A DNA stretch of 5,494 nucleotides from positions 1 to 5,494 of the forward strand of contig PATE01000074.1 in the NCBI GenBank assembly GCA_002712305.1. The letters are read 5' to 3'. The position numbers and the translations under genes were made by a program. Each line of letters begins with the position of its first letter. The first letter of the stretch is position 1. The stretch comes from Gemmatimonadota bacterium (GTDB taxonomy: Bacteria; Latescibacterota; UBA2968; UBA8231). Below the pieces are notes generated by a model. It saw only the letters and a list, made by a program, of their open reading frames with translations, made no database searches and had not been told where the DNA came from. Of the stretch, positions 2,077 to 5,288 are shown one piece after another.

Positions 2077-3411
2077 CTACTCCCCGACGATCAACGGCTC
2101 CTGACCCGGCGAGTAGGCATCCGGATCGGTGGCCATCACTCCCTTGGGCAGACGGATCGGCCCCTCGAGGATCGGATCGTCCGTCGTGCGCATCCAGTCG
2201 TCGAGACTGGCCCGCAACTCAGCCTCTACCGAGGCCAGCTCTGGTTGGCCGATCAGGTTGTTCTGCTGATCGGGGTCGAAATAGTGGTCGTATAACATCT
2301 CCTGATGGCGGGGCAGCGCCGCCCAGTCGTGATCCACCAGATCCTGCTTGGCCGGTGTGTCATCCGTATTCGGCAGCACCAGCGTCTCGCGCTCGTCGAA
2401 GCGGCGAATCAGAATGTGTCGATCCGTTCGCACCGCCCGCATCGGTTCGTAGGCGGCATGGAAGGTCTGCTCGAGAAACAGCCGATCCCTCAGCGACGTG
2501 ACCTGGCCGTCGACCAGCGGTAACAAGGACTCTCCCTGCAGCCAGTCAGGGTGATCGATCTGCGCCAGGTCACAGACCGTGGGGAACAGATCCATGAGCG
2601 AGACCATGCCGTCCAGGGTCTTTCCCCCGTCGAAGTGAGCCGGACCGCGGGCGACAAAATACGCCGCATTGCCATGCTCGCCGACACTGCCGATGTGCAA
2701 GGGCCACTGCAGGCCGTGATCGGTGAAGGCGAACACATGGGTGTTGGCATCCTGCCCTGTCTCGGCCAGCGTCGTCAGAATCGCCCCGAAGGCGTCATCC
2801 ATCTGCCGGGCGCTGCGTTTGAAGCCGGCCGCCATCTGCCGCAGTTCCGGTGTATCGGGAAAGGGTCGAGGCGGCACACAGTGGTCGGCATTCTCCGCCG
2901 GAAATCGGTCGGGTTCGGGCTCCGGATACGGCGTGTGCGTCTCGGTCGTGCCCACGTTGAGGAAGAAGGGCTGTCTCGGCTTGGTCGCCAGCCATTCGCA
3001 GACCGCCGGCGCAACGTCGGCGGCGATGGCACTGTCATTTCGAGTCAACGCGTGGTTGTAGGCGTCGGAAAACGCACCCTTGCTGTGGGGCACCACGTGT
3101 TCGATGCCACAGTGGGCCGTGTCGTAGCCGCTGGCTGCCAGAACGCGGGAGATGTGACGCTCTGGGTTGGCCAGAGCGAAACCACGGTGGGCGAGACCGA
3201 GCATGCCAGCGCAATGAGGAAACTGCCCCGTGAGGAAAGCCGCTCGACTCGGCGAACAGGAGGGCGCCGCCGAAAAGGCGCGGCGGAACAGGGCCCCTTC
3301 GCGTGCCATCTTCATCAGATTCGGCGTGGGTACGGCGTGCCCATAGGGTTCGATGAAACGACCCGTGTTGTGGGCGTGGAGGAAGACGATGTTGGGTGGC
3401 GATGCGCTCAT
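2077..3411 (-). CDS. Sulfatase (alkaline-phosphatase fold, CxPSR type), divergent active site
   Basis: The 444-residue protein begins MSASPPNIVFLHAHNTGRF, matching the usual first strand of sulfatases. AAPSCSPSRAAFLTG (48-62) is the sulfatase signature; Cys52 is the residue normally converted to formylglycine for sulfate-ester hydrolysis. Other family landmarks are GTTETHTPY (154-162), FTDHG (229-233, metal-ligand Asp231 and His232), MDLFPTVCDLAQI and LYDHYFDPDQQNNL near the C-terminus. Two things are odd. The first metal-site pair, usually Asp-Asp or His-Asp, is His14-Asn15. The Lys that normally follows the DHG motif is not seen in WPLHIGSVGEHG. No signal peptide is visible from this start, which suggests a cytoplasmic enzyme. 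The frame extends upstream to 3759, but that part overlaps the zinc protein in another frame and looks non-coding. The start is 16 bp after the previous stop, indicating an operon. The substrate is unknown. Confidence 0.88.
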   Translation of the reverse strand: MSASPPNIVFLHAHNTGRFIEPYGHAVPTPNLMKMAREGALFRRAFSAAPSCSPSRAAFLTGQFPHCAGMLGLAHRGFALANPERHISRVLAASGYDTAHCGIEHVVPHSKGAFSDAYNHALTRNDSAIAADVAPAVCEWLATKPRQPFFLNVGTTETHTPYPEPEPDRFPAENADHCVPPRPFPDTPELRQMAAGFKRSARQMDDAFGAILTTLAETGQDANTHVFAFTDHGLQWPLHIGSVGEHGNAAYFVARGPAHFDGGKTLDGMVSLMDLFPTVCDLAQIDHPDWLQGESLLPLVDGQVTSLRDRLFLEQTFHAAYEPMRAVRTDRHILIRRFDERETLVLPNTDDTPAKQDLVDHDWAALPRHQEMLYDHYFDPDQQNNLIGQPELASVEAELRASLDDWMRTTDDPILEGPIRLPKGVMATDPDAYSPGQEPLIVGE

Positions 3412-3427: not shown

Positions 3428-3826
3428 TCAGCGTCGTGATTTCTTCCTGGAAGTCTTCTTGCTGGAGAAGTTGCCTGAATACCCCTTGGTGAGATGCCAT
3501 CCGTGGCCCTTCTCGCAGGCATACACCCGCAGTTCGGCGCCCTGTTCCTTGCGCAGTATGTCGGCTCGCCGCTGCGCTTCCGATTCGTTGCGGTAGGTGT
3601 CCTTCGGTTTGCCATCCGACCCGGTACACACGGGGCACTTCGTGCTCGGTGTCTGTCGATTCTCTGCCGCCAGATGCCACATTCCGCACGTATCACACTG
3701 ATAGGGCGCCATCTTGCGGCCATAAGCCTGGCGCGCGTGATCGGCCCCCTCCTGCGCATCGCGCTGAGATTCGTATTCCGTCAGCGGCTTGCCCGAGGAC
3801 TTTCCGATGCAGGTCTGGCTCTTCAT
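3428..3826 (-). CDS. Small putative zinc-binding protein with two tandem YxC..WHL modules
   Basis: The 132-residue basic protein contains two copies of one module at an exact 60-residue offset. Matching residues are GKP 12-14/72-74, Tyr18/78, Ala24-Gln25/84-85, Ala28-Asp29/88-89, Arg32/92, Gly36/96, Tyr42/102, Cys44/104 and Trp50-His51-Leu52/110-112. Copy one has CDTCGMWHL; copy two has CPVC at 64-67 and CEKGHGWHL at 104-112. Cys/His spacing suggests metal binding, and the tail SSKKTSRKKSRR is strongly basic, suggesting nucleic-acid contact. Single-copy proteins with a Y-x-C-x2-C-x-x-WHLT ending occur as small uncharacterised bacterial and phage proteins; I know no function for them. The ATG overlaps the dioxygenase stop as ATGA with no separate ribosome site, implying translational coupling. 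The sulfatase starts 16 bp downstream. Confidence 0.75.
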   Translation of the reverse strand: MKSQTCIGKSSGKPLTEYESQRDAQEGADHARQAYGRKMAPYQCDTCGMWHLAAENRQTPSTKCPVCTGSDGKPKDTYRNESEAQRRADILRKEQGAELRVYACEKGHGWHLTKGYSGNFSSKKTSRKKSRR

Positions 3827-4614
3827 GCGGCACCGTCGGCCGGTAGTTCGAGACCAAAGGACTGCGCATAGAGCCGGCTCACATCGTTCAGATTGCCATA
3901 GAAGGCGCGCGCCTCGTCGTCGCCGTGCTGCCAGAACAGGGGTGGGATCACCGAGTCATTCGCCAGGGGCGCACGATCACGATGGCCGTAGTAGATCTGC
4001 ATCGTCTTGCGCTCGGCCGAGGTGGGTCGGGTCGTGGCCGTATGCAGCACGGCCACATTGAACAGGCAGACCGTTCCCGCTTTGCCGTGTATGTCGACAC
4101 ATCCACCGCGCGTCAGCTGTTCGTCGTTGTCCGTGAGAATCGGTTGCTCGATTCCCTCCGGCGACAGTGAGAAACAGTGGGTGTCTGGTTCCACATCCGA
4201 CAGATACAGCATCTGCTGGATGTAGTCCATGCGCAGCGGGTGTTCTGGCCAGTGTGGACGATCGCGATGCCAGCCCTGATGCAGCTCGCCATCGTAGGCA
4301 CCCATGAACCGTGCACCGATCTCACCGAAACAGACAGGTCCTCCCATCAGTTCCACCACGGCGTCGTATACCTTCGGATGACGAACGACTTCGTCGAAGG
4401 CCGGGGTCGTGCACAGCGCGTCATAGTTGGCTTCCTGATGGTGGCCATATCGATGCCAGCGATATCGCCGCTCATCTCGATCTCGGTCGAACAGATCGAC
4501 GAAGTGCGCCAGCTCATCGGCCGAAACCCAATCGTCGCGCACGATGTAGCCGTGGGTGCGAAAGAATTCGACATCCGTGTCGGTCAGTGCCCTCATGTGT
4601 GCCGTGTTCTCCAT
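3823..4614 (-). CDS. Phytanoyl-CoA dioxygenase (PhyH)-like Fe(II)/2-oxoglutarate oxygenase
   Basis: The 263-residue protein opens with LTDTDVEFFRTHGYIVRDDW (10-29), the usual N-terminal helix and strand of PhyH-like oxygenases. WHRD (115-118) gives the His116-x-Asp118 iron pair. His191 in LHTATTRPTSAERK is the distal iron ligand, and Arg202 fits the 2-oxoglutarate-binding position. These soluble enzymes hydroxylate small molecules with O2 and 2-oxoglutarate; bacterial paralogues act on diverse substrates, so the family name does not imply phytanoyl-CoA. The frame is open far upstream. I start at the ATG at 4614 because codons above it lose the GC-rich third positions seen below it. ATG 4596 (257 residues) is also possible, and ATG 4719 has a better ribosome site (GGGAG) but an unconvincing N-terminus. 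It leads the minus-strand operon and its stop overlaps the next start. Confidence 0.85.
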   Translation of the reverse strand: MENTAHMRALTDTDVEFFRTHGYIVRDDWVSADELAHFVDLFDRDRDERRYRWHRYGHHQEANYDALCTTPAFDEVVRHPKVYDAVVELMGGPVCFGEIGARFMGAYDGELHQGWHRDRPHWPEHPLRMDYIQQMLYLSDVEPDTHCFSLSPEGIEQPILTDNDEQLTRGGCVDIHGKAGTVCLFNVAVLHTATTRPTSAERKTMQIYYGHRDRAPLANDSVIPPLFWQHGDDEARAFYGNLNDVSRLYAQSFGLELPADGAA

Positions 4615-4731
4615 AGAATCGGTTCGTAAACCCTCCCGTTTCGTGTGAGTAAGGAAACCGGGACCCCCACAAGCGACAAGGCCTCCTTGACCAGAGAAGT
4701 TGAACTTTTGAGTTGACATTCCGACTCTCCC
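4615..4731. promoter_or_regulatory. Divergent intergenic/promoter region
   Basis: This 117-bp gap separates the minus-strand dioxygenase operon from the plus-strand membrane-protein gene, so promoters for both should lie here. It is visibly more AT-rich at 4695-4720 than its flanks. I could not place a convincing -35/-10 pair for either direction: TTGACA at 4713-4718 matches a -35 box, but 17 bp further on lies within the coding start and is not TATAAT-like. The plus-strand ATG at 4732 has no Shine-Dalgarno. On the minus strand GGGAGGG (4637-4631) lies 16 nt from the chosen dioxygenase ATG, which is too far for a standard site. Confidence 0.5.
4687..4725 (+). repeat. Three TTGA motifs at 13-bp period, candidate operator
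   Basis: TTGAC (4687), TTGAA (4700) and TTGAC (4713) start exactly 13 bp apart, dividing the stretch into three 13-bp units. Only the first four or five bases of each unit are conserved. The array includes the palindrome AAGTT-G-AACTT (4697-4707) and the inverted repeat AACT-TTTG-AGTT (4703-4714). It ends 6 bp before the plus-strand ATG, a position where a bound protein could affect both divergent genes. The winged-helix regulator encoded at 5299 is an obvious candidate ligand, but that link is inference. Confidence 0.4.
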
Positions 4732-5288
4732 ATGGAAATGGATCAAGCTGCAGCGGACGTTCGTATGATTCGCGAGACCATCGATCGCGCCCGCCACCAA
4801 TTGGCCGCCGGTGGTGGCGGACACATCATGATCATCTGGGGAATCGCCTGGGTCCTCGGCTACTCGGCCACCCATCTATTGGAGAATCACCTGGTGGGCT
4901 ACCTGGGGGCCATCGTCAATTCCACGACCGGCATTGCCAGCTACATCACGGGACGCATGTACGGATCGAAGGTCAAGGGACACAGCGAGAATCGGATCTG
5001 GGGCTTGTGGATGGCCCTGTTCGGTTTCGGCATCCTCTGGATCTGGCTTCTGGGGATCAACACGAGCAATGACATGGGCATGTTCTTTGGCAGCCTGGCC
5101 ATGTTCGGCTACGTCGTGGTGGGGCTGATGCTTGCAAGTCGGTTTCTCGTCGGCCGGGACTGGCGATCACCGGACTGTCGGTTGCGGGATATGTCCTGTT
5201 CCCCGAGCACTTCTCGTTGTGGATGGCCCTGACCGGTGGCGGCGGCCTCATCGCGGGTGGTGCCTACGCCCTGCGCGCCTGGCGCTGA
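4732..5288 (+). CDS. Small multi-pass membrane protein, interrupted by a one-base frameshift
   Basis: The start MEMDQAAADVRMIRETIDRA is a short charged cytoplasmic helix. Hydrophobic spans follow at about residues 32-50, 54-70, 89-108 and 115-136. The starting frame then runs through RFLVGRDW into unlikely sequence and stops at 5232. From about 5157 another frame continues GLAITGLSVAGYVLFPEHF and a Gly-rich span, GGGGLIAGGAYALRAWR, ending at TGA 5286-5288. Adding one G to the GGG at 5156-5158 gives VGRGLAIT and restores a protein of about 185 residues with roughly six spans. The restored stop lies 10 bp before the winged-helix gene, the spacing expected of an intact operon. Similar proteins, often described only as hypothetical membrane proteins, sit beside such regulators; their function is unknown. 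The lesion is either a real slippage mutation or a homopolymer sequencing error. Confidence 0.75.

Follow-up and report, generated by a model that had tools for sequence, protein, structure and literature searches.

Organisation of the locus

The window (the whole stretch of 5,494 nucleotides that was analysed) encodes on its minus strand an open reading frame of 132 amino acids (P0001; 3428..3826), which starts with an ATG at 3826 and runs down to 3428. The product is a two-module, WHL zinc-finger-like protein. Module 1 covers residues 5-55 (3662..3814, minus strand), module 2 covers residues 62-114 (3485..3643, minus strand), and a tail rich in lysine and arginine, variable in length and sequence among homologues, makes up the C-terminus (residues 117-132; 3431..3478, minus strand). 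The gene lies between two others on the same strand: upstream, a dioxygenase of the PhyH family (3823..4875; Pfam PF05721, 2.6e-11), whose stop codon overlaps the start of the reading frame in the ATGA at 3826-3823, and downstream, a sulfatase of 444 amino acids (2077..3411; Pfam PF00884), counted from its likely start at 3411. The coordinates of the reading frame and its overlap with the oxygenase stop had been given correctly in the first-pass annotation. Further along the minus strand (507-1688) is a gene for a molybdopterin sulfite dehydrogenase that resembles SoxC/SorA and has a twin-arginine-like start (RRRFLRAGG); a gene of this type also lies near the two-module locus of a second species of the genus (L015:1515-2726).

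Distribution and conservation of the two-module protein

Searches with tblastn identified the two-module protein in 9 of the 64 genomes of the phylum, always as a single copy and in two families; gaps in the assemblies may account for some of the 55 genomes that lack it. The closest named record belongs to a metagenome-assembled genome labelled Gemmatimonadetes (SI074_bin69, L008), and a full-length homologue (44% identical) is encoded on plasmid pTS2 of Treponema saccharophilum. All ten homologues have two modules per protein. A search of the phylum with a module profile recovered the same nine proteins, with two stretches in each, and no single-module protein in these genomes. Close pairs of homologues give a dN/dS of about 0.05-0.1. 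The reading frame is thus a real gene, strongly conserved and under purifying selection: it recurs in nine genomes of the phylum and on the Treponema plasmid, its dN/dS is low, and its putative metal ligands are invariant. The identity between homologues is 88% within the genus, 61-76% within the family and 57-60% within the class. This agreement between divergence and taxonomy suggests a gene long held by these cells.

An internal repeat of 60 residues and its predicted fold

When the protein is slid over itself, 19 of 72 positions are identical at an offset of 60, against at most 9 at all other offsets from 30 to 89. Shuffled sequences reached a maximum of 14 identities at this offset (20,000 shuffles) and of 18 when the best of 70 offsets was taken (4,000 shuffles). 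Since the observed value exceeds both maxima, the repeat is real. The structural elements predicted by AlphaFold2 recur at an offset of exactly 60 in modules 1 and 2, respectively: a helix at residues 21-35 and 81-95, and strands at 39-43 and 99-103 and at 50-54 and 110-114. The sequence of the window had led to the proposal that a small Cys/His module was duplicated in tandem at an exact 60-residue offset; this is upheld by sequence, by homologues and by the predicted likeness of the two halves.

The full model has a mean pLDDT of 77, with values over 90 in the cores of the modules and a linker of low confidence; its pTM of 0.43 means that the placement of one module relative to the other is not predicted. 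In the alignment used for this model, module 2 was covered by a single close homologue; modelled alone, it gave the same elements with a pLDDT of 83.6. Both the full model and that of module 2 match small phage proteins, the best single-module ones with an rmsd of 0.5-1.4 Å over about 40 residues; the very small size of the domain accounts for the weak E-values of these matches. We found no relative of the protein in the PDB by sequence, and no Foldseek match of the full model to PDB structures at E <= 0.001. With VIA-align the full model reached at best a middling Z of 4.0 in the PDB (I-SceI, I-DmoI), and module 2 alone a Z of 3.9. This null result for the fold does not show that the fold is new.

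Kinship with single-module phage proteins

Searches of Pfam and NCBIfam returned no family above cut-off for the 132-residue protein. It is matched by two PHROG families of unknown function, 3424 and 15216 (E of 1e-8 and 2.8e-8), each over two stretches. They correspond to an abundant family of tailed-phage proteins of 50-75 amino acids that consist of a single module, with the consensus C..K..Y.s...A......Y.C..CG.WHLT; named phages that carry it include Bordetella phage BPP-1 (Bbp44) and Burkholderia phage Bcep1 (gp62). A DNA pattern for Y.C..CG.WHL gave at least 120 matches in viral contigs, and among the matches listed most lie in reading frames of 50-110 amino acids with an upstream cysteine, a K and a Y.S...A stretch. 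One further reading frame of this type, with FHL at the WHL position, is unannotated and lies inside a tRNA array of Cellulophaga phage phi4:1_13 (L186:1501-1632).

We built a profile from 69 non-redundant viral single modules, leaving out the protein of the window. It matched module 1 (residues 17-53, i-E 7.5e-11) and module 2 (residues 74-114, i-E 1.5e-10), and likewise the two halves of every one of the nine homologues; the best of 200 shuffled sequences had a value of 0.07. Module 1 has exactly the C...CxxC...H pattern of the phages. Among the 138 viral reading frames counted, 134 have the CxxC pair, 130 of them with the upstream cysteine, and three of the four that lack the second cysteine have instead an N-terminal CxxC or CxxH pair. 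The layout of module 2 (CxxC...C...H) is rarer in phages; L245 shows it, as do L167 and L178 with a CxxH. None of these 138 reading frames has two modules, and the viral contigs gave no match to the two-module alignment.

The protein of the window and those of PHROG 3424 and 15216 have in common the N-terminal cysteine, the Y.S..A helix, the Y.C..CG.WHL knuckle and the predicted fold. They differ in that the PHROG proteins have one module, are strongly basic and are encoded by phages, whereas the protein of the window has two modules, is near neutral and chromosomal, and has an alternative ligand layout in its second module. Because it has two modules rather than one per short protein, we regard it as a variant, and not a plain member, of this module family. 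The gp65-type proteins of Microbacterium phages also start with a WHL-like module (CPGCGGYHLT), but this is followed by a region annotated as helix-turn-helix (HTH) and not by a second module. The likeness to DUF4379 (PF14311, a probable treble-clef finger) consists of a C...W...CPxC pattern over residues 37-69 (E 0.0099); the score is below the gathering threshold (16.5 vs 24.5 bits), and in its ligand order and its WHL strand the protein of the window represents a module distinct from DUF4379. A tblastn match in an Escherichia phage (H3) was set aside as a DUF4379 and T5orf172 protein, i.e., a different module, and an FmdB/Zn_ribbon_8 zinc ribbon (PF09723, TIGR02605) was rejected for scores below the curated cut-offs (14.7 vs 34.4 and 14.5 vs 31.3).

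The description of the protein as undescribed thus holds at the level of Pfam and NCBIfam families, but in single copy the module forms a widespread phage protein, which PHROGs already includes with no function attached. What is new is the tandem, chromosomal version with mixed ligand layouts. A hypothetical chromosomal gene is now connected with a phage module that is very common yet uncharacterised and that we did not find in Pfam; nor did we find a paper on the WHL motif, on PHROG 3424 or 15216, or on Bbp44.

Putative ligands and metal sites

Each module has three cysteines and one histidine as putative ligands: C6, C44, C47 and H51 in module 1 (C...CxxC...H), and C64, C67, C104 and H111 in module 2 (CxxC...C...H). 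All eight are invariant in the ten-sequence alignment, so homologues do retain the Cys and WHL positions; the Treponema homologue has CxC in place of CxxC at 64-67. The cysteine pair is in the C-terminal knuckle in module 1 (CDTC) and in the N-terminal knuckle in module 2 (CPVC). The first-pass annotation had remarked that copy 2 lacks the second cysteine of the CxxC (CEKG) and is preceded by a separate CPVC, and both features are real. It had also pointed to a histidine beside the glycine of copy 2; this residue, H108, is H, D or N across the alignment (D or N in three homologues) and is therefore no candidate ligand. Once an indel of one residue is allowed, C6 of copy 1 corresponds to C67, so that each module has an N-terminal cysteine and a Y.C....WHL end. 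The extra N-terminal cysteine of module 2 would probably replace the cysteine lost from its CxxC.

One shared site or two unequal sites had both been considered at first. A shared site would be a single zinc ribbon or treble clef in which C44, C47, C64 and C67 form a CxxC...CxxC, with the repeat serving only as a scaffold. The weak Pfam matches do fall on this region (DUF4379 as above; Zn_ribbon_8 over residues 42-69, E 0.032), but both are under their curated cut-offs (16.5 vs 24.5; 14.7 vs 34.4). Moreover, in single-module proteins of viruses the WHL is not followed by a CPxC, and yet these proteins keep C...CxxC...H within about 50 amino acids, and a single C4 site would leave the invariant C6, C104 and both WHL histidines unexplained. 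We thus consider a shared site quite improbable. The conservation of the ligands favours two sites that are probably separate, unequal and each complete, i.e., two ligand layouts for the WHL module.

Taken together, the protein is likely to consist of two phage-type WHL zinc-finger modules with one structural metal each. It would be a small cytosolic protein in which each module adopts a predicted strand-helix-strand-strand fold and holds one metal ion, presumably zinc, by four ligands of its own. The two modules probably arose when an ancestor with a single module was duplicated or fused, and the second knuckle cysteine of module 2 would have shifted from the C-terminal side to the N-terminal one.

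Gene neighbourhood

The organisation of the locus had suggested that the protein serves the pathway of the dioxygenase and the sulfatase, for instance as a dedicated chaperone, regulator or maturation factor of one of these enzymes, translated with them as one operon. The ATGA overlap with the dioxygenase gene, the gap of 16 bases to the sulfatase gene and the conservation of the three-gene order in the second species of the genus are consistent with this. We found this order in no other genome, and the sulfatase neighbour (86% identical) is restricted to the same genus. The neighbours of the homologues show no conserved neighbourhood outside the genus: they include a DEAD-box-like helicase and an oxidoreductase (G006, G007), unrelated genes (G002, and G023 and G024), an apparent toxin-antitoxin pair (G049) and, on the Treponema plasmid, hypothetical genes that precede a viperin operon. 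A PhyH gene is again upstream in G051, but it is no orthologue (18.6% identical over 156 amino acids).

PhyH genes are extremely expanded in these bacteria, with at least 150 copies per genome of 5-7 Mb in each of the four genomes tested (G000, G007, G020, G051), so that chance adjacency to the two-module gene is likely. The position beside the dioxygenase gene looks like such a case, and the two neighbours are probably not functionally linked to the protein. A role as operon partner is thus very unlikely, and the proposed connection with the dioxygenase pathway is best abandoned.

Possible roles in conflict with phages or in nucleic-acid work

Since the proteins with one module are those of phages, the gene could be a domesticated phage-derived one that acts in phage conflict, e.g., as a decoy or by interfering with phage replication. 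Its carriage is patchy: besides being limited to nine of 64 genomes, it is missing from two single-contig genomes (G011, G012) whose genus also includes carriers. In Treponema the homologue is found close to, and upstream of, a viperin operon (L011:4980-10081; nucleotidyltransferase, PEP-synthase-like protein, cysteine desulfurase and viperin), and the G049 homologue follows what appears by inspection to be a HigB/HigA-type toxin-antitoxin pair (L022:2497-3857). However, no PADLOC model matches, we recognised no defence neighbours at the other loci, and the divergence that follows taxonomy suggests a long-held cell gene. Phage conflict is therefore an unlikely role. A broader scheme is similarly doubtful: the WHL module would be an unnamed, widespread phage domain with a common job, such as modulating the replication or transcription machinery, and the two-module cell protein its domesticated bivalent form, used against phages or for the cell's own control of nucleic acids, with complementary ligand layouts in one chain.

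Within the preferred account of two structural zinc-finger modules, the most likely role of the protein would be that of a bivalent adaptor for nucleic acid or for a replication or transcription protein, independent of the dioxygenase and the sulfatase. This association, argued by analogy with viral relatives, seems to us possible at somewhat less than an even chance. It is suggested by the basic character of these relatives (mean net charge of +6.2 over 46 amino acids), by the Microbacterium phage proteins in which depositors annotated a fused HTH domain (Pfam does not confirm the HTH), and by the position of the single module in replication cassettes: in BPP-1 it has polymerase/endonuclease on one side and helicase on the other, and in Bcep1 it lies among helicase, HTH and polymerase genes. 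The neighbours at 60 viral loci are mostly proteins of DNA metabolism; this signal is weak because many of the distal controls are likewise rich in nucleic-acid enzymes. Whereas the viral modules are basic, those encoded in the window are close to neutral (from -4 to +1 for module 1), so that nucleic-acid binding may have been lost. The longer, well-conserved two-module protein may suit purification and assay better than the 50-residue phage versions.

The DEAD-box-like helicase beside the two-module gene in G006 and G007 was counted in favour of nucleic-acid work. This divergent helicase (378 amino acids, 55-100% identity) is limited to four genomes, and each of these carries the two-module protein. 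The co-occurrence is a weak lead because the four genomes form related pairs and because, in G023 and G024, the helicase is not next to the gene. Its copies are at G006:C411:902-2035, G007:C156:38491-39624, G023:C400:22291-23403 and G024:C44:17-1129.
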